A program made the position numbers and the translations under genes. Positions 8,105 through 15,529 of a DNA stretch of 61,764 nt are shown piece after piece (positions within the stretch are counted from its first letter, which is position 1; each line of letters starts with the position of its first letter). The DNA lies in contig JAGBSH010000013.1 of NCBI GenBank assembly GCA_017631885.1, positions 1 to 61,764 of the forward strand, written 5' to 3'. The notes below the pieces were generated by a model. That model made no database searches, was not told the origin of the DNA, and saw only the letters and a program-made list of their open reading frames with translations. Source of the stretch: Fibrobacteraceae bacterium. GTDB lineage: Bacteria; Fibrobacterota; Fibrobacteria; Fibrobacterales; Fibrobacteraceae.

Positions 8105-8181
8105 GGTGTTTTCATCTAACAAAAAGTGCGTGTTATGCAGGCAGGGGCAAACTCCAGAAGTTTAAACTGATGGAGAGCGTT

Positions 8182-11100
8182 ATGACGACAAAACAGCCTA
8201 TTAAGATATTTTCACGCCTGTCTTTCTGGAGTGTAGCGATAGGAACCATGGCAATTCTCGCCGCCTGCGGTGGTGATAGCGGGAGCAAGTCCAGCGGAGC
8301 AGAAGATGTCCCCGTCCGCGAAGTTTCCACCATCTACGACCTAGGAGCTTGTACCCCCGACCGTGAGGGGGATACCGTGTATGTTACGGCACAAGCCATC
8401 GATTATTTGTGTTCAAACAACAATTGGATCGATATCACGACCCTGTCGGAAAATCTCGACGTAAACCTTTCTTCGGGAGGTGTTTCTGGCAACGGTCCAG
8501 AATCCAGCAGTTCCACCATGGACGACCCGCTGAACGGCAGTTCCAGTTCTTCGGTTCGCGCGTCCTACATTGAAGTTTCTACAAAGGAGCAGCTCGGCAC
8601 CTGCGATTCCAGTGCCATTGGCCTACGCGCTTTGGTGTTAGCCGATTCTTCTTACTTTACGTGCAAGGCAAATGGCTGGGCAAAGGACGAAGCATTCCTA
8701 GGTTACGACATCGTTCCTACCAAGGAAGATTTGCCCCAGTGCCACGCAGGCAACGCCAAGCAGCGCGTTTTGGTCAAGAAGGATTCCATTTTCTTCAAAT
8801 GCGATTCAGTAAAGTGGGTGCCCGAGACCGCCGACGGCTATATCGTGAAGAACGCGTCCATCTTAGGAGCGGCGCAGAAGGGTCCCTTCAAGTTCGATTC
8901 TCCTCTGACACTCCGTGAAGTCCTTTTGCACGACGACACACTGACCTACACGGGCCGCGAATACATAGACGAGATTTCTAGTAACAAGGGCGATTTCGTG
9001 ATTCCGAAGGTGAACCTGGTTTACCCCTACGCGGTGCTTGAAGTTCGTGGCCTGTGGCGCAACGAAGTGACCGGCGAATGGAGCAAGGATTCCATGACGC
9101 TCCGCGCCCTGACCGATTTGACCAGCCGCACCGAGGTGAACATCAACCTGCTGACCCACCTGGAATACGACCGCGCCGTACAGCTGGTGAACAAGGGCTA
9201 CAGCATGTTCGCCGCCAAGAAGCAGGCCGAATACGAAATCATGACGGCATTCGGGTTTGCGACCACGGTGGAATATTCCGAAGACCTGAAATCATTCGTG
9301 CCATCCACCAGCACGAACCACGATGTCAACGCCACCCTGATGGCGATTTCGCTGCTTTTCATTGGCGACAGGAGCGAAGCCGAAATCCAGAAGGCAATTG
9401 CCGACTTCAAGCAGGACATGGCCGGTGACGGCGAGTGGAACGACGCCCAGACCAAGGCCGATATGGCGGACTGGGCGGAAAGTTTTGACGACGGTTCCGT
9501 GCGGGCCAACGTGAAGAGCTGGAACATCCTGGACATTCCCGCTTACGAGAACTACCTGACCATTTACTGGAACAACGCCTACGAACTGGGCGGCTGCGCC
9601 TCGACCCGCTACGACGTGGTGGCACAGAACAGAAACGCCAAGAGCAAGAACTACAATGTCCACTACATCTGCAAGGCTACAGGTTGGCAGAAGGCTACCG
9701 ATTACGAGAAGGACACCTACCAGTGGGCAGAAGGTGAAGAAGGCGAATTCAAGAAGGGCGACGTGACCGAGATCTATTATGTGTTCGAAAACGGGTCGTG
9801 GACTGTGGCGAAAAACGAAACGGCCCTGGGACTATGTACCGAGGCACGTAATGACGAAATAGGTAAAATCGACACCATGTACTTTATTTGCGACAGCAAG
9901 AACTGGCGCAAGGCCACCATGCTGGAATACGACACCTACCAGTTCGGCGCGGGCAACGACGGCGAAGTCCGCACAGGCAAGGTGAACGAAGACAAGTATT
10001 ATGTCTATGAAAACGGGGTATGGCGAGCATCTGCAAGTGAAATCGAAAACAACCTGGGTGCGTGCGTCACAAGCCGCGAAGGCGAAGTCGGCAAGTCCGG
10101 CAGCACCTACTATACCTGCAAGACAAGCGGCTGGACAAAATCGACGGCTTTGGAATACGACACCTACGGCTGGGAACCCGGAACGGAAGGAGCCGTTAAG
10201 CCAGGCAGCGTAAATACTTCGAACCACTATGTGTTTGAAAACGGGGCGTGGCGGGCATCTGCAAGTGAAATCGAAAACAACCTGGGTGCGTGCGTCAGCA
10301 TTCGCGAAGGTGAAAAGCACCCGCTGAACAGCAAGTACTACATCTGCGAAAATAAGGTTTGGAAAGAAATCACCGCTACAGAATATGAACTAGGATATTG
10401 CACCACCGCAAAGAACGGTACCGTCGAAAAACTGAACGACGTGTATTACATCTGCAAGACAAATTCCTGGAAAACAGCAACCGTGCTGGAGTATGATACT
10501 TATGGATGGACTGCAGGAACGGAAGGTGAGATAAAGGCAGGAAGTGTAAACACAAGCAATTACTACATCTACAAAGACAGCAAATGGCAAGAGACTTCAA
10601 TTGGCACAGATTTAGGAATCTGTAACTCTGATCAAGAAGGCTTTGTCGAAAAACTGAACGACGTGTATTACATCTGCAAGACAAATTCCTGGAAAACAGC
10701 AACCGTGCTGGAGTATGATACATACGGTTGGACTGTAGGAACTGAAGGTGAAGTGAAAGCCGGAAATGTAAATACAGGCAATTACTACATCTATAAAGAC
10801 AGCGAGTGGCAAGCGGCCAGTAGTGTTGAAAAAAACTTGGGCGGATGCACAACCGCTCGTGAAGGCGAAGTTGATAAATCAGAAGACATCTATTATATCT
10901 GCAAATCTAAAACCTGGAAAACGGCAACTGTTTTGGAATATGATACATACGGAAAGGCTTGCCTTACAGATGGTTCAATAGTCTCTGGAGAAGTTACTTC
11001 AACAAACAAATATGTCTGCGATGCAGGGGCGTTTAGAGCAGCAAATGAACAAGAAATTTCCCTGAATAAAGGGTGTGTCAGCTATACAGAAGGGGGGATG

Positions 11101-11802
11101 TATGAAATAAGAAAACAATTATCATCCGTTACAGACGCCGTATATCTATGCGATGGTGTTTTGTGGGAAATACATATCGAATTTGCTAGGGAATATGGAA
11201 CACTGACAGATGAAAGAGACGGCAAAACTTATAAAACTGTTACCATAGGAACTCAAACATGGATGGCTGAAAACCTGAACTACTCGGATACTACAAATTA
11301 CCCCAGTATGAAAGGCCGGAATTGGTGTAACAGCGGTATAGAAGACAGCTGTGCGAAATATGGTCGCCTATACACCTGGTCTGCCGCCATGGATAGTGTT
11401 GGTACATTTAGCTCCAATGGAAAAGGTTGTGGTAATGGGGATACTTGCTCTCCAACATTCCCAGTACGCGGAATTTGTCCTGAAGGTTGGCACTTGCCAA
11501 CCAAGGCTGAATTTGAAACCCTTTTCACAACCGTAGGAGGAAAATCAACGGCAGGAAGAATGCTTAAATCAACAGACGGTTGGTACGGCACCGATGACTT
11601 CGGCTTTTCCGCTCACCCAGCGGGCTATAGCAACGAAAGTGGCTATTTCCTCCGCGAGGGTAACTCCGCGTATTTCTGGAGTGCTAAAGAGTACGATGAG
11701 CGCTACGCTTACAGCTTGTACTTGTATTACTACAACGAGTCTGCGGACCTGGACTACGGCAGCAAGATCTTCGGGGTCTCGGTTCGTTGTGTAAAGGATT
11801 AA
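8182..11802 (+). CDS. Large FISUMP-domain surface lipoprotein with internal repeats
   Basis: The start at ATG 8182 is chosen because GGAG lies just upstream; an earlier ATG at 8170 has no ribosome site. A lipoprotein signal ends AILAAC (C29). After Ser-rich linkers, a central region (about 225-470) has the GPF ... LREV ... LTHLEYDRA pattern I associate with Fibrobacter surface lipoproteins. Residues 470-925 carry about six repeats of roughly 70 aa (YYICK..SWKTAT.LEYDTYGW..G.EG). Residues 1006-1206 are a FISUMP domain: DERDGKTYKTVTIGTQTWMA, then LPTKAEF and GVSVRCVKD. The 5' two-thirds is much more GC-rich than the rest. Probably an envelope or adhesion protein; the function is not known. Confidence 0.85.
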   Translation: MTTKQPIKIFSRLSFWSVAIGTMAILAACGGDSGSKSSGAEDVPVREVSTIYDLGACTPDREGDTVYVTAQAIDYLCSNNNWIDITTLSENLDVNLSSGGVSGNGPESSSSTMDDPLNGSSSSSVRASYIEVSTKEQLGTCDSSAIGLRALVLADSSYFTCKANGWAKDEAFLGYDIVPTKEDLPQCHAGNAKQRVLVKKDSIFFKCDSVKWVPETADGYIVKNASILGAAQKGPFKFDSPLTLREVLLHDDTLTYTGREYIDEISSNKGDFVIPKVNLVYPYAVLEVRGLWRNEVTGEWSKDSMTLRALTDLTSRTEVNINLLTHLEYDRAVQLVNKGYSMFAAKKQAEYEIMTAFGFATTVEYSEDLKSFVPSTSTNHDVNATLMAISLLFIGDRSEAEIQKAIADFKQDMAGDGEWNDAQTKADMADWAESFDDGSVRANVKSWNILDIPAYENYLTIYWNNAYELGGCASTRYDVVAQNRNAKSKNYNVHYICKATGWQKATDYEKDTYQWAEGEEGEFKKGDVTEIYYVFENGSWTVAKNETALGLCTEARNDEIGKIDTMYFICDSKNWRKATMLEYDTYQFGAGNDGEVRTGKVNEDKYYVYENGVWRASASEIENNLGACVTSREGEVGKSGSTYYTCKTSGWTKSTALEYDTYGWEPGTEGAVKPGSVNTSNHYVFENGAWRASASEIENNLGACVSIREGEKHPLNSKYYICENKVWKEITATEYELGYCTTAKNGTVEKLNDVYYICKTNSWKTATVLEYDTYGWTAGTEGEIKAGSVNTSNYYIYKDSKWQETSIGTDLGICNSDQEGFVEKLNDVYYICKTNSWKTATVLEYDTYGWTVGTEGEVKAGNVNTGNYYIYKDSEWQAASSVEKNLGGCTTAREGEVDKSEDIYYICKSKTWKTATVLEYDTYGKACLTDGSIVSGEVTSTNKYVCDAGAFRAANEQEISLNKGCVSYTEGGMYEIRKQLSSVTDAVYLCDGVLWEIHIEFAREYGTLTDERDGKTYKTVTIGTQTWMAENLNYSDTTNYPSMKGRNWCNSGIEDSCAKYGRLYTWSAAMDSVGTFSSNGKGCGNGDTCSPTFPVRGICPEGWHLPTKAEFETLFTTVGGKSTAGRMLKSTDGWYGTDDFGFSAHPAGYSNESGYFLREGNSAYFWSAKEYDERYAYSLYLYYYNESADLDYGSKIFGVSVRCVKD
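10027..10297 (+). repeat. 43-bp direct repeat inside the FISUMP gene
   Basis: 10027-10069 and 10255-10297 are identical over 43 bp. They code the junction between two neighbouring protein repeats and indicate recent duplication. Confidence 0.85.
10423..10721 (+). repeat. 77-bp perfect direct repeat inside the FISUMP gene
   Basis: 10423-10499 and 10645-10721 are identical over 77 bp, while the flanking codons of the same two protein repeats differ. The offset is 222 bp (74 codons), so the frame is kept. Confidence 0.9.
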
Positions 11803-11829
11803 ATTCTAACACATTTATACATAGGGACT

Positions 11830-12456
11830 ATGGAAATGACTTGTAAAGAATGTAATGTGTGTAAACAGATTTCAGCAGAAACTAACTCTACGGAGAGAGT
11901 TACCACTGAATTGGCACAGTCTACTACAAATAATGATCCAGCAAAAATAGAGCTTCTCATTGTAGGCGAATCGCCTTACCCAACTTCTCTTGTTCCAAAA
12001 TTTGCCTTTTGCAAACCAACATGGATTGAACAAGTTGAATATAATTGTTGCGGAAGATTCGTTTTGTGTTCTTTGGGAATAAAGCTGGAGAAAGTATCTA
12101 ACAAATATCCTTACCCTAAAAACATGTTTGAAGACCTCACAAACAAAGGAATTAAGTTCCAAAACTTGTACTTGGAACTTAATAAGGACAAAAGTCCGTC
12201 AAGGAAGCACAAGAATCCTGACATAGATAATTTCACCAGCAAAGCTTCAAAAGTTGTTCTATGCGGTCGCAAAACACACATTATAGCACAGGAAAAAAGT
12301 GATTTTATATGCGCAATTCACCCTGCAGCTCGCTGTAGAGACTATTGCCAAGAATGGAAAAAGTTTTGGGGTGGCAAAGGCAACTTATTGAACTTACTTG
12401 AACCATCTGGTTCTGGTCCAATTCACACCATCATCAACAACATTAATTCTTTGTGA
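11830..12456 (+). CDS. Uracil-DNA-glycosylase-superfamily-like protein 1
   Basis: 208 aa, no exact family recognised. IELLIVGESPYP (about 40-51) resembles motif 1 of UDG-fold enzymes, GIKFQNLYL (107-115) fits the strand that carries a conserved Asn, KVVLCGRKTH (141-150) matches the following core strand, and AIHPAAR (162-168) is the motif-2 HP[SA] loop with H164. The N-terminus has C5-x2-C8-x2-C11 and there is a CC at 73-74, so a metal or Fe-S site is possible. It ends within the start region of a second UDG-like gene. Base excision or nucleic-acid binding is inferred from fold motifs only. Confidence 0.55.
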   Translation: MEMTCKECNVCKQISAETNSTERVTTELAQSTTNNDPAKIELLIVGESPYPTSLVPKFAFCKPTWIEQVEYNCCGRFVLCSLGIKLEKVSNKYPYPKNMFEDLTNKGIKFQNLYLELNKDKSPSRKHKNPDIDNFTSKASKVVLCGRKTHIIAQEKSDFICAIHPAARCRDYCQEWKKFWGGKGNLLNLLEPSGSGPIHTIINNINSL

Positions 12457-12461
12457 TAAAT

Positions 12462-13070
12462 ATGGATAGACTGCCAAAACACTTATACTTTTCCAATGGA
12501 TCGGAAAACGATGTGGAAATACTTTTCATCTTGGAATCTCCATATAAGGAAGAACTTTATTGGGGTTTTCCTTGTATAGGTAACACCGGTAAGAAAATGT
12601 CCGAGGTTCTTGTAAATGACAAGAATATCGCTATTGGTGATTTGATTCAACATAACAATCCACAAACAAGAAAATACGCCCTTTTTGAAACCTTCAAATT
12701 TCCTTTGGACAAATCATTAACGCATGGGCTAGATGCAGACGAACTATTCTGGAAAAAGCTTAAAAACAAGGGCGACAAAGATCAAATCAAGATGTTTTTC
12801 GAACAAAACAGGCAGTTCTTTTCGTACTCATACAAATACAACTTAGAATGCGCTCTAAAGATATTCCAAAGAAAATTGAAGGAAATCGTAGTCTGCGGCG
12901 ACATCGCACAAAGTATATTCGAAGTAGCCTTTGAAGATAAGCTCAAACAAGAAAAAACGCAAAAATCAGTCAATGTCGTTTTTGTCGAACATCCTGCAAA
13001 AAATTTACGCAACAGCAGACCATGGACATACAAGTCCAACACGAAAGCTAGCTTGTTCTTTTCCAGATAA
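12462..13070 (+). CDS. Uracil-DNA-glycosylase-superfamily-like protein 2
   Basis: 202 aa from ATG 12462; a GTG at 12453 overlapping the previous stop is an alternative start. VEILFILESPY (18-28) followed by GFPCIGNTGKKMSEVL (35-50) matches the GExPG ... GxPFxGxxG pattern of family 4/5-type UDGs, KEIVVCGDIAQ fits the next core strand, and VEHPAKN (H177) is the motif-2 loop. The usual catalytic Asp or Asn positions are not obvious, so activity is uncertain. Coupled to the preceding, very divergent UDG-like gene; the two may form a complex or act in sequence. A 134-bp repeat starts 49 bp downstream. Confidence 0.6.
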   Translation: MDRLPKHLYFSNGSENDVEILFILESPYKEELYWGFPCIGNTGKKMSEVLVNDKNIAIGDLIQHNNPQTRKYALFETFKFPLDKSLTHGLDADELFWKKLKNKGDKDQIKMFFEQNRQFFSYSYKYNLECALKIFQRKLKEIVVCGDIAQSIFEVAFEDKLKQEKTQKSVNVVFVEHPAKNLRNSRPWTYKSNTKASLFFSR

Positions 13071-13118
13071 GACCAAGAAAAGAGGAAAAATGAAGATCTT
13101 TTCAACTTTCGCGTTAGG

Positions 13119-13252
13119 GATGGAAGTGGCGAAGCCATTCGGACTCGCGAAGCGAGGCTGAACGGACGCACGGCGACCTTATTGTTATTTGTAAAATGGC
13201 CGTGCGATACCGCGACAGCCCGACCCGCGCCAGCGGGGAACGCTCAAACGGC
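13119..13252 (+). repeat. GC-rich structured repeat, copy A (134 bp)
   Basis: 134-bp sequence almost identical to copy B at 14525-14658 (six substitutions, no indel). Its last 46 bp recur as copy C at 15484. It can fold into at least three hairpins: CTCGC-GAA-GCGAG; CGCACGGC (13167-13174) with GCCGTGCG (13199-13206); and CCCGC with GCGGG. Much more GC-rich than the flanking genes. Confidence 0.9.
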
Positions 13253-13254
13253 AC

Positions 13255-13425
13255 TCAGGCGTTCCATTCCGTTCGCATCAAAAAATCCAGTAAACCGACA
13301 ACAAGAATTCCGTCGTCGTAATGCGGCTTGACAATATCCTTTACGACGATAATCCGCTTAAATCCGTCCGTCAGGTTCACCAGAGGGATTTCTTCTCTTG
13401 CTCGCGTTTTTCGGCGGTCGATATA
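13255..13425 (-). pseudogene. C-terminal remnant of an AAA ATPase (DUF4143-type)
   Basis: Reading the minus strand from 13425 to the stop at 13257-13255 gives a 56-residue tail including IPLVNLTDGFKRIIVVKDIV and GILVVGLLDFLMR. This matches the C-terminal end of the common AAA/DUF4143 family of ATP-binding proteins (typically RE..L ... yPK.iit.D ... GI..i.l.dFL). An in-frame stop lies just upstream at codon level and there is no ATPase core, so only a fragment remains. It abuts repeat A within 3 bp. Confidence 0.5.
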
Positions 13426-13459
13426 TCAAAGGCGGATTGAATGAAATTCAATTCTCTTC

Positions 13460-13485
13460 AAAAGGATGCCTCGATGCATCCTTTT
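13460..13485 (-). terminator. Intrinsic terminator of the DUF3990/DUF3791 operon
   Basis: AAAAGGATGC (13460-13469) pairs perfectly with 13476-13485; an A-tract on the plus strand gives the T-tract for minus-strand transcripts. Lies 25 bp after the DUF3791 stop. Confidence 0.75.
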
Positions 13486-13509
13486 CTGTAAATTCTTTTT
13501 TGTGACAAA

Positions 13510-13950
13510 TTACAGTAGCTTCCCTGCCTTGAAGGATTCTTCAAGGTAGCTCGGATTCTGATAATAGCAATCCGAATTGAAGTTGGAGATGTAGTCGCTA
13601 ATGGGGGAGGTGAAAATCTTGATGGCAGTCTCGATTTCGTTGCCGTTCTTTGCGCAGTCGAGAACCATGATGCAATACAGGTTGCCGATGTCCGTATAGG
13701 AGGGAATATCGTATTTGCAGTTCTCTACAGATTCAAAATCGCCCTGCGGGATTTTGTACTGGTCCACAACTTCTTCACCGACCTGCTCGAAACTTAGGCA
13801 ATGGTTCACCTGGGCGTCTTTCAGTTGTTTGGCAAAACCGTCAATTCCAAGCCTGTTTGCGACCACCCCGCGCTTGTTCTTTGTCTTGCGGGCAATAAAT
13901 TCAACCAGCGAACACACGTAGAACAAATCGTCTTTATCTGCTTCCGTCAT
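13510..13950 (-). CDS. DUF3791-like protein, partner of the DUF3990 gene
   Basis: 146 aa. The N-terminal half (DDLFYVCSLVEFIARKTKNK and a following RLG ... GFAKQL) resembles DUF3791, a small domain commonly encoded next to DUF3990. The C-terminal half, with CYYQNPSYLEESF, is not recognised. Translation is coupled: its start overlaps the end of the DUF3990 gene by 17 bp. In such pairs one member is thought to neutralise the other, so this is a candidate antitoxin; that is inference from pairing. A terminator follows. Confidence 0.6.
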   Translation of the reverse strand: MTEADKDDLFYVCSLVEFIARKTKNKRGVVANRLGIDGFAKQLKDAQVNHCLSFEQVGEEVVDQYKIPQGDFESVENCKYDIPSYTDIGNLYCIMVLDCAKNGNEIETAIKIFTSPISDYISNFNSDCYYQNPSYLEESFKAGKLL

Positions 13951-14401
13951 GTTTGACCTCGAATTTCAAGAACTTCAGGCATGCTAGAGCCGAAAGCGTG
14001 TGAAAACTAATTTGGTGTGTAGGGTATTTGAATTCTGCCAATGCCCAGAACTGCTTGCGATTAATCCGCCCTGTCAAGAAATCGTTCACAAAATTCCAAA
14101 CAGTATCGTCTGCCATAGGACCTTCGACAACATCGTATTGATGGGTGCTTCCATTACGGCAGGCTGCTATAAAATCGAGCCATTCGTCGGTCATCCTTTC
14201 GAATTTCAGGATTTTTAGTGAGCCTGAATCCGTAAATTCATAGTGATTGACGTATGGGGAGCCCTCACCACGATTTGCCCACCGTATCGCTTGCCTAAAA
14301 TCATTCGTGCAATAGAAACCCCAAGAAAAGTCCTTGGTGAACTTTGTCTTTCGAATTTCGGGCAATTCCACGATTTGTTTGCTTGCATGGTAAATGAGCA
14401 T
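13934..14401 (-). CDS. DUF3990 protein, ADP-ribosyltransferase-like candidate toxin
   Basis: 155 aa, full length for DUF3990. Visible motifs: LIYHAS (2-7), equivalent to the LYHGS opening of the family; DFSWGFYCTNDFRQAIRWA; EWLDFIAACRN; YDVVEGPMADD; and QISFHT near the C-terminus. The YH[GA]S and GFY.T elements resemble ADP-ribosyltransferase folds, so an NAD-using toxin is plausible but unproven. First gene of a two-gene minus-strand operon with the DUF3791 gene, opposite in direction to the flanking cassettes. Confidence 0.7.
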   Translation of the reverse strand: MLIYHASKQIVELPEIRKTKFTKDFSWGFYCTNDFRQAIRWANRGEGSPYVNHYEFTDSGSLKILKFERMTDEWLDFIAACRNGSTHQYDVVEGPMADDTVWNFVNDFLTGRINRKQFWALAEFKYPTHQISFHTLSALACLKFLKFEVKHDGSR

Positions 14402-14524
14402 GACTTTAATATAATAAAATGTCCCGAAGAAATCAAAAATTCAAAGTGAAAGCAGTTTGAATGCGTTAGGCCTCCAGCCACTTGGCAACTCAATGCCTTA
14501 GTGGTTATGGTCCCCTTTAGGGGA

Positions 14525-14658
14525 GATGGAAGTGGCGAAGCCATTCGGACTCGCGAAGCGAGGCTGAACGGGCGCACGGCGACCTTGTTGTTGTTTGTAA
14601 AATGGCCGTGCGATACCGCGACAGCCCGATCCGCGTCAGCGGGGAACGCCCAAACGGC
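14525..14658 (+). repeat. GC-rich structured repeat, copy B (134 bp)
   Basis: Same length as copy A with six substitutions (about 95% identity) and the same hairpins. It lies between the divergent starts of the DUF3990 operon and the 60-aa/GNAT pair. Both A and B are preceded by GCGTTAGG, directly in A and about 53 bp upstream in B, so B has an extra insert at that point. Confidence 0.9.
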
Positions 14659-14725
14659 TTAAACAGGAACTTGTCAAGTTGCTTTCCGCAGGAATTATGT
14701 GTATATTTATAGGCGGAGGTCTAGT

Positions 14726-14908
14726 ATGCGCGTAATATCTCAAGAATTCAAGCAACTATTGAAAAAAAGCGATGCGTTCGCTCTTTTTTCTAAATCCCAT
14801 AGACCCGATCATTCCAAACTTGACCGAGAGGTCGAAGAATTCGAAAAATGGATTGCCGAGGAGCATGCGAAGGATCGTCGTATGCTGCTGGAGGCTTCCA
14901 GCAAATGA
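14726..14908 (+). CDS. 60-aa protein, candidate antitoxin of the GNAT gene
   Basis: Start at ATG 14726 is fixed by a GGAGGT ribosome site at 14715-14720; the longer frame from 14699 has none. The product is 60 aa, highly charged and probably helical (KLDREVEEFEKWIAEEHAKD). No DNA-binding fold is evident. The stop overlaps the start of the GNAT gene as ATGA, the usual coupling in toxin-antitoxin pairs. The antitoxin role is inferred from size, order and overlap only. Confidence 0.65.
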   Translation: MRVISQEFKQLLKKSDAFALFSKSHRPDHSKLDREVEEFEKWIAEEHAKDRRMLLEASSK

Positions 14909-15480
14909 TTATCGAATTTTCCGTCGTCGATACCAAAGATTTCACTATTGAGCATTTGTTTGACAATCCTGAAAATCTTGACCTAATTGCAAATTTTCAG
15001 GCGACTAATGGCGCTGCGGGGTTAGAATATTACCTTAAAAATCAATCTGTAGATGACGAGGAAAATAATTGCAGCAGAACATACCTCGTCAAAGATGCCT
15101 TGTCCGCTGAATTAGTTGCATACTTTTCTTTGAAGACAGGTCTTATCACTATTCAGCTTGATGGAGAGAAATTTGACTCTGTTCCCGCCATTGAACTTGC
15201 AAATTTTGCAATAAACAAGAAGTACAAGGATACACATCCCGAATCACAGAAGCTGGGTTTCTATACATTCAAGAAATTCGTGCTTCCCATTGTTCAAAGA
15301 ATGTCCGTGTATATTGGTGTGAACGCGTTGTATATTTACGCATTGCCAGAAGAAAAATTGATTGATCATTACCAGACCATGGGATTCGAACGCCTTCCGG
15401 AGCCTCAAGAAAAATTTGTCCAACGCCATGTAAAGCCAGAGTATGACGAGGGCTGCATTTTCATGTATCAGACAATCTGA
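14905..15480 (+). CDS. GNAT-family N-acetyltransferase-like protein, candidate toxin
   Basis: Start at ATG 14905, overlapping the previous stop (ATGA), with GAGG upstream; 191 aa. The order of motifs fits the GNAT fold: LVAYFSLKTGLI (beta strands), VPAIELANFAINKKY (the strand before the acetyl-CoA loop), KLGFYTFKKFVLPIVQ (helix after the loop), LYIYALPEEKLIDHYQTMGF (the typical final strand and Y..MGF). The acetyl-CoA loop reads HPESQKLG rather than the canonical Q/R-x-x-G-x-G/A, so it is degenerate. Resembles tRNA-acetylating TacT-type toxins in architecture; the substrate is unknown. Repeat copy C begins 4 bp after the stop. Confidence 0.6.
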   Translation: MIIEFSVVDTKDFTIEHLFDNPENLDLIANFQATNGAAGLEYYLKNQSVDDEENNCSRTYLVKDALSAELVAYFSLKTGLITIQLDGEKFDSVPAIELANFAINKKYKDTHPESQKLGFYTFKKFVLPIVQRMSVYIGVNALYIYALPEEKLIDHYQTMGFERLPEPQEKFVQRHVKPEYDEGCIFMYQTI

Positions 15481-15483
15481 TTC

Positions 15484-15529
15484 GCAATACCGCGACAGCC
15501 CGACCCGCGCCAGCGGGGAACGCTCAAAC
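15484..15529 (+). repeat. GC-rich structured repeat, truncated copy C (46 bp)
   Basis: Matches the last part of copies A and B (from the ATACCGCGACAGCCCG segment to GCTCAAAC) with one difference from A. It starts 4 bp after the GNAT stop and marks the right end of the cassette-like block. Confidence 0.85.

Follow-up and report, generated by a model that had tools for sequence, protein, structure and literature searches.

Two tandem genes of a Fibrobacteraceae bacterium (GCA_017631885.1, contig JAGBSH010000013.1), here termed A and B, encode divergent proteins of two different families of the uracil-DNA glycosylase (UDG) superfamily and occupy a slot of swappable content directly behind the gene for a giant FISUMP-type lipoprotein. 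Both are accessory genes, and the block in which they lie has moved between genera. We consider A and B to be cargo of this FISUMP-linked slot and probably to encode either DNA glycosylases that act against phage or proteins that bind modified bases, with a probability of about 0.5 for this reading.

Gene layout

The window, i.e. the whole stretch of DNA analysed, comprises 61,764 nt and contains three units separated by a structured repeat: FISUMP-A-B, a DUF3990 pair and a GNAT pair.

8170-11802, + strand: giant repetitive lipoprotein (lipobox ILAAC) whose C-terminal domain is Fib_succ_major (FISUMP; PF09603, E 9e-33)
11830-12456, + strand: gene A, 208 aa, divergent family-1 (Ung-like) UDG-superfamily protein
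12462-13070, + strand: gene B, 202 aa, divergent family-4-like UDG-superfamily protein
13111-13252, + strand: structured repeat rich in G+C, GCGTTAGGGAT ... GGGGAACGCTC, lying 41 bp downstream of B
13510-14401, - strand: DUF3990 cassette, with the DUF3990 protein at 13934-14401 and a 146-aa partner at 13510-13950
14465-14658, + strand: second repeat copy, of which 14525-14658 is 96% identical to 13119-13252
14699-15480, + strand: GNAT cassette, with a small antitoxin-like ORF at 14699-14908 and a GNAT acetyltransferase ORF at 14848-15480, the likely true start of which is 14907
15484-15529, + strand: partial third repeat copy, at the end of the accessory block

A and B are complete ORFs on the + strand, with 27 bp between the stop of the lipoprotein gene (11802) and the start of A, and a 5 bp gap between the stop of A and the start of B. 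For B, the ATG at 12462 is preferred to the listed GTG at 12453, which overlaps A, because the former agrees with the start of both B relatives (MDRLSKYL, MMCRLPDHL). The two genes are probably one operon; a search of 11500-13600 for sigma-70-like promoters gave none, and promoters of this lineage may differ.

A first-pass annotation, made from the sequence alone, had described two tandem, strongly diverged UDG-like genes beside toxin-antitoxin-like units. This description holds, in that the ORFs are complete, their landmark motifs are real, the similarity of A and B is limited to a local stretch of 26 residues (35% identity) and the DUF3990 pair corresponds to the PADLOC candidate PDC-M10 (E 2e-85 and 4e-56). 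A tandem duplication is ruled out, since profiles and folds place A and B in different UDG families and the stretch that they share is short. No Pfam family, PF03167 included, matched A or B above its curated cut-off, so the UDG assignment needed more sensitive profiles and folds; the PF03167 search proposed in the annotation as a check was in this respect negative. Structure prediction, also proposed, gave UDG-type folds as the best match for each protein, and together with the profile matches it bears out membership of the superfamily, A being family-1-like and B family-4-like.

Gene A, a family-1-like protein with a replaced catalytic Asp

Gene A encodes the landmarks GESPYP, FAF.KPTW, G.KFQN, CGRK and HPAA, and gave no match in Pfam, NCBIfam or PADLOC; its relative L032 scored 20.5 bits against PF03167 (cut-off 24.3). 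When a profile of A and three relatives was searched through the genomes of the phylum, the next matches included canonical Ung genes (L109, E 3.6e-5; L110, E 0.003), and all 31 sequence matches of A in the PDB are uracil-DNA glycosylases (best E 5.5e-4). The AlphaFold model, of moderate confidence (pTM 0.66), has UNG-type proteins as its best structural matches (E about 0.02, probability up to 0.97).

Alignment to real Ung proteins reveals that Tyr50, Phe60, Asn112 and His164 are kept, Asn112 and His164 being the counterparts of the uracil-binding Asn and catalytic His of Ung, whereas the catalytic Asp of GQDPYH is replaced by Ser48. The residue preceding Ser48 is Glu47; a Glu at this place, in a GExPG motif, is a feature of family 4. 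Among the relatives, the motif at the catalytic Asp site is GESPYE in L030 (GESPYP in A of the window), and the Asp is kept in L031 and L032. Overall, A shares with family-1 Ung the GxxPYP, FAF, GIKFxN (Asn), LCG and HP motifs and the profile link; it differs in its Ser, in its accessory location, in an N-terminal CxxCxxC (present also in L030 and L031) and in that the leucine intercalation loop is not recognizable (HPAARC). No signal peptide was seen in A. An in-frame stop is present in two of the three A relatives, and A may therefore be in decay. The Ung protein L109 (G011:C78, 5562-6170, - strand) has GQDPYP and HPAAR in place of GQDPYH and HPSPLS, motifs that stand between those of housekeeping Ung and those of gene A.

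Gene B, a family-4-like protein with a probably altered pocket

The landmarks of B are LESPYKEE, GFPCIGNTG, FETFKFP, VVCGDIAQ and EHPAK. NCBIfam gave weak matches, to Arch_udg (E 2.4e-4) and UDG_fam4 (E 5.1e-4), far below cut-off; the score against TIGR00758 is 19.8 bits, not reaching the curated 125.3. The best PDB matches of the predicted structure (pTM 0.78, moderate) are the family-4 UDGs 1l9g (E 1.7e-4, probability 1.00) and 1ui1, followed by BdiUNG, TDG, UdgX and Mug. B is thus like family-4 UDGs (UDGa) and UdgX in its fold and in its ExP..GxPxxGxxG and HPA architecture, but unlike them in the Fe-S cysteine pattern and, apparently, in the pocket Phe and Asn. The four Fe-S cysteines of family 4 are absent, the only cysteines that all three known B proteins share being Cys38 and Cys145.

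By motif, Glu25 would correspond to the family-4 Glu and His177 to the HP loop, and Cys38 and Glu76 would take the places of the stacking Phe and of the uracil-selective Asn, respectively; Glu76 is placed by reading FETFKFP against the family-4 TN..K motif, with an insertion of ~12 residues before it. Glu25, Cys38, Glu76 and His177 are invariant in the three B proteins. Between B and L034, dN is 0.32 and dS is saturated, and B is under purifying selection.

The earlier statement that A and B lack obvious catalytic residues is partly right: it fits Ser48 of A and, on the motif reading, Cys38 and Glu76 in the uracil pocket of B, but not the Tyr, Phe, Asn and His kept in A or Glu25 and His177 kept in B.

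A variable slot behind a FISUMP subclass

The context considered in the first-pass annotation missed the recurring neighbor, namely the upstream FISUMP lipoprotein gene and its variable slot. The window lipoprotein (1210 aa) is encoded directly upstream of A, and four of the five clear relatives of A and B also lie directly behind a FISUMP gene (A: L030, L031; B: L034, L035); the fifth (L032, an A relative) has FISUMP genes nearby, without being in line with one. In a survey in which the linker of the window FISUMP protein was used as the query and the DNA following each match was read, 17 of the 23 evaluable close subclass members had a co-directional accessory gene within about 150 bp (spacing 3-150 bp), one of these slot genes (L141) being a degraded-looking copy; three of the others were followed by another FISUMP-type gene and three by no gene or a distant one only. 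None of 17 control FISUMP genes outside the subclass had such an accessory gene (Fisher p 1.5e-6, for loci chosen and judged by eye and with kinship among loci ignored).

The slot genes encode A, B, a third UDG-like protein, the STADKK membrane family, PD-(D/E)XK-like proteins (a 188-aa family, by motif; L177, PDDEXK_4 E 4e-4), DUF2971 proteins, an 8xMP membrane protein and a weak NERD-like protein, with one slot gene next to that of a protein which is FRG-like by motif; looser subclass members contribute some of these examples. PADLOC defence candidates among them are PDC-S31 (E 5.5e-13) and PDC-S57 (E 5.8e-11). The third UDG-like protein (L151, G056:C4:96962-97801; ILFVGINPNYGK, ILFVGINPNYGKN; PF03167 E 0.017), in the FISUMP slot of another species, is confined to one genome, no other relatives being present in the phylum. 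In the reciprocal direction, a FISUMP gene precedes five of five close STADKK relatives and five of eight close relatives of the 188-aa PD-(D/E)XK-like protein.

In L185, L186 and L188, the 188-aa PD-(D/E)XK-like gene lies ~20-24 bp behind the gene for a non-FISUMP secreted protein of 361-435 aa, which suggests a second carrier family. In a defence-like neighborhood remote from FISUMP, a distant STADKK membrane protein (L200, G098:C63) adjoins an FRG-like protein. Our literature search, which left subscription journals mostly outside its reach, found no paper using the name FISUMP and none on such a slot.

Exchange at shared sites and movement between genera

Slot content differs between species at the same chromosomal site. 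The loci L030 (A) and L035 (B) share a site beside acyl-CoA dehydrogenase, and this tsf/acyl-CoA-dehydrogenase site carries, depending on the species, A, B, a 179-aa gene or a PD-(D/E)XK gene; at a proB-side site the gene is STADKK or what remains of an 89-aa gene. Comparison of such loci gives mostly 80-97% protein identity for the N-terminal part of FISUMP and 38-52% for the last 60-80 residues; beyond the slot gene, which is not the same, the flanks return to 94-96% identity. In the window, the N-terminal part of the lipoprotein gene (8257-10506) has 85-87% DNA identity to FISUMP genes of another genus, and the C-terminal part (about 10885-11801) has about 70% in the same comparison.

The DUF3990 pair and the GNAT gene have 95-97% and 95% DNA identity, respectively, to copies in another genus; ung of the same genome has 63-66% to the genomes of that genus. 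The block has therefore been shared recently between genera, and on this sequence evidence it is horizontally acquired.

The structured repeat is about 130-190 nt long (GCGTTAGGGAT ... GGGGAACGC), has several hairpins and is intergenic, both in the window and in L005-L029; it matched no Rfam family. Most slot genes have a copy 5-54 bp behind them in the same orientation. Further copies lie scattered between core genes of the genome and in its relatives, and those of the window are closer to one in another genus (L083) than to native copies. Identification as integron attC sites (RYYYAAC...GTTRRRY) was rejected, as the order of the boxes is reversed (GCGTTAGGGAT at the start, GGGGAACGC at the end) and copies lie between core genes. 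Since the repeat is dispersed in this way and does not have the attC order, we regard it as at most a recombination substrate. In L221, a DNA cytosine-methyltransferase-like gene (445 aa; 13046-14383, - strand) has the structured repeat 8 bp behind it.

The repeated FISUMP sequence upstream and the structured repeat downstream could supply homology for recombination, with the cargo being read from the FISUMP promoter. The slot might then be a hot spot of recombination and expression only, its cargo being unrelated in function to FISUMP. We rate this as possible, at a level well short of our preferred reading: it accounts for the 80-98% identity of the FISUMP N-terminal halves in most comparison windows across loci and genera, for the repeat directly behind most cargo and also between core genes, and for cargo of many unrelated folds, but does not readily explain why the 17 other FISUMP genes carry no such cargo. 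As it is silent on the function of A and B, it is also compatible with their being glycosylases or binders directed at invading DNA.

The FISUMP lipoproteins (8170-11802 in the window; L219-L225) have a highly conserved N-terminal stalk and a hypervariable end of 60-80 residues, and diversity-generating retroelements are reported to target Fib_succ_major domains (PMC4159848). The loci resemble Rhs/CDI-type polymorphic loci in having a long conserved N-terminal core, a variable C-terminal tip, conserved flanks and a variable small gene behind; they differ in that the FISUMP tip keeps one lectin-like fold, with no toxin, and in that the products of the genes behind it, unrelated in fold, are implausible as immunity proteins. 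A toxin-immunity relationship of tip and cargo was rejected, given the unrelated cargo folds and tip identity that does not clearly track cargo identity. Tip identity is a poor guide to cargo identity, rising to 78% between loci with non-homologous cargo, and these comparisons do not establish tip and cargo as matched pairs.

A looser partnership, a two-part module in which a lectin-like lipoprotein on the surface, its tip hypervariable, works together with an effector in the cytosol, e.g. for surface sensing and intracellular response, is rather doubtful in our view. The tight co-directional adjacency in 17 of 23 loci, its recurrence across unrelated cargo folds and the contrast between conserved stalk and diverging tip (down to 38-52% identity), in a domain type reportedly subject to retroelement diversification, are consistent with it; there is, however, no obvious signal route from an outer-surface lipoprotein to the cytosol, the relation between tip similarity and cargo is unclear and three PD-(D/E)XK relatives have another secreted protein in front of them. 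Equally tentative is the extension of this idea to a Fibrobacter modular system, spread as cassettes between genera, in which a FISUMP-tip lipoprotein is combined with one swappable cytosolic effector (three kinds of UDG fold, PD-(D/E)XK-like nucleases, DUF2971 and membrane proteins); A and B might then be two effectors stacked behind one lipoprotein.

Distribution of A and B

Counting its own genome, A occurs in four and B in two of the 168 genomes of the phylum. The A relatives are in G032, G073 and G035, each without B, and the B relatives are two copies in G019, without A; A and B occur together in no other of the 168 genomes. A scan of a bacterial genome collection found a B relative only in the MAG Fibro_02, and neither gene had a relative in the viral, phage or plasmid collections, on which grounds a phage or plasmid origin was rejected. 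The genome has a canonical Ung elsewhere, which confirms the redundancy with a housekeeping UDG implied by the annotation, and one further UDG-superfamily match, so that A and B are extra.

It is unlikely that A and B serve DNA repair, as ordinary or relic glycosylases for the additional removal of uracil or deaminated bases. Their superfamily and the residues kept in A (Asn112, Tyr50, Phe60 and His164) agree with such a role, but the canonical Ung, the sporadic distribution, the catalytic substitutions, the horizontal acquisition and a slot common to nuclease-like proteins and defence candidates argue against it. The annotation had treated the genes as a pair and proposed a survey of co-occurrence, which they do not withstand, being of different families with relatives that occur singly and never together; an obligate pair is rejected, and even a heteromeric pair, which the 5 bp spacing and probable common operon might suggest, is very improbable given that relatives of each occur without the other.

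Proposed function

Our preferred reading, i.e. anti-phage glycosylases or modified-base binders carried as slot cargo, follows from the altered active sites, the redundancy with Ung, the horizontal movement and the defence-like company in the slot, which together make A and B most likely weapons against foreign DNA. The two genes would be co-transcribed with the FISUMP lipoprotein gene, and their products would act on DNA in the cytosol, excising or tightly binding a non-canonical base in the DNA of phages or other invaders. In the case of excision, the resulting abasic sites would stop replication, as with Brig1-type glycosylases. With a Glu that by motif reading falls at the uracil-selective Asn position, where Brig1 also has Glu, B may favor a modified cytosine; A, with the Asn kept, may act on a uracil-like base, or may only bind, given that its catalytic Asp is replaced by Ser.

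In Brig1, an anti-phage glycosylase with a family-4-like fold, Glu147 takes the place of an Asn that is common in uracil enzymes (PMC11078745). B has this fold in common with Brig1, and Glu147 would, by motif reading, be matched by Glu76 at the uracil-selective position. Like Brig1, Brig2 and Brig3 (PMC11078745, PMC13160076), A and B are accessory UDG-superfamily proteins that are separate from Ung and lie in regions with defence candidates. They differ from the Brig proteins in that A is family-1-like and in their context, a FISUMP slot versus an ADP-ribosyl-glycohydrolase/defence island; A and B are known from genes alone, and a sequence link between them and the Brig proteins is not shown. 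PADLOC has no model matching A or B themselves; this result, the absence of relatives from phages, plasmids and viral contigs, the in-frame stops among the A relatives, the moderate structure models, the motif-based placement of the B active site and the slot counts made by eye weigh against our preferred reading.

Implications

If our preferred reading is correct, the position behind one FISUMP subclass would be a catalogue of defence-type effectors that can be found by position alone, in a lineage of rumen fibre degraders. A and B would also add two branches to the small set of glycosylases with a known action against invading DNA, one Ung-like with an altered catalytic residue and the other family-4-like with a putatively Brig1-like pocket.
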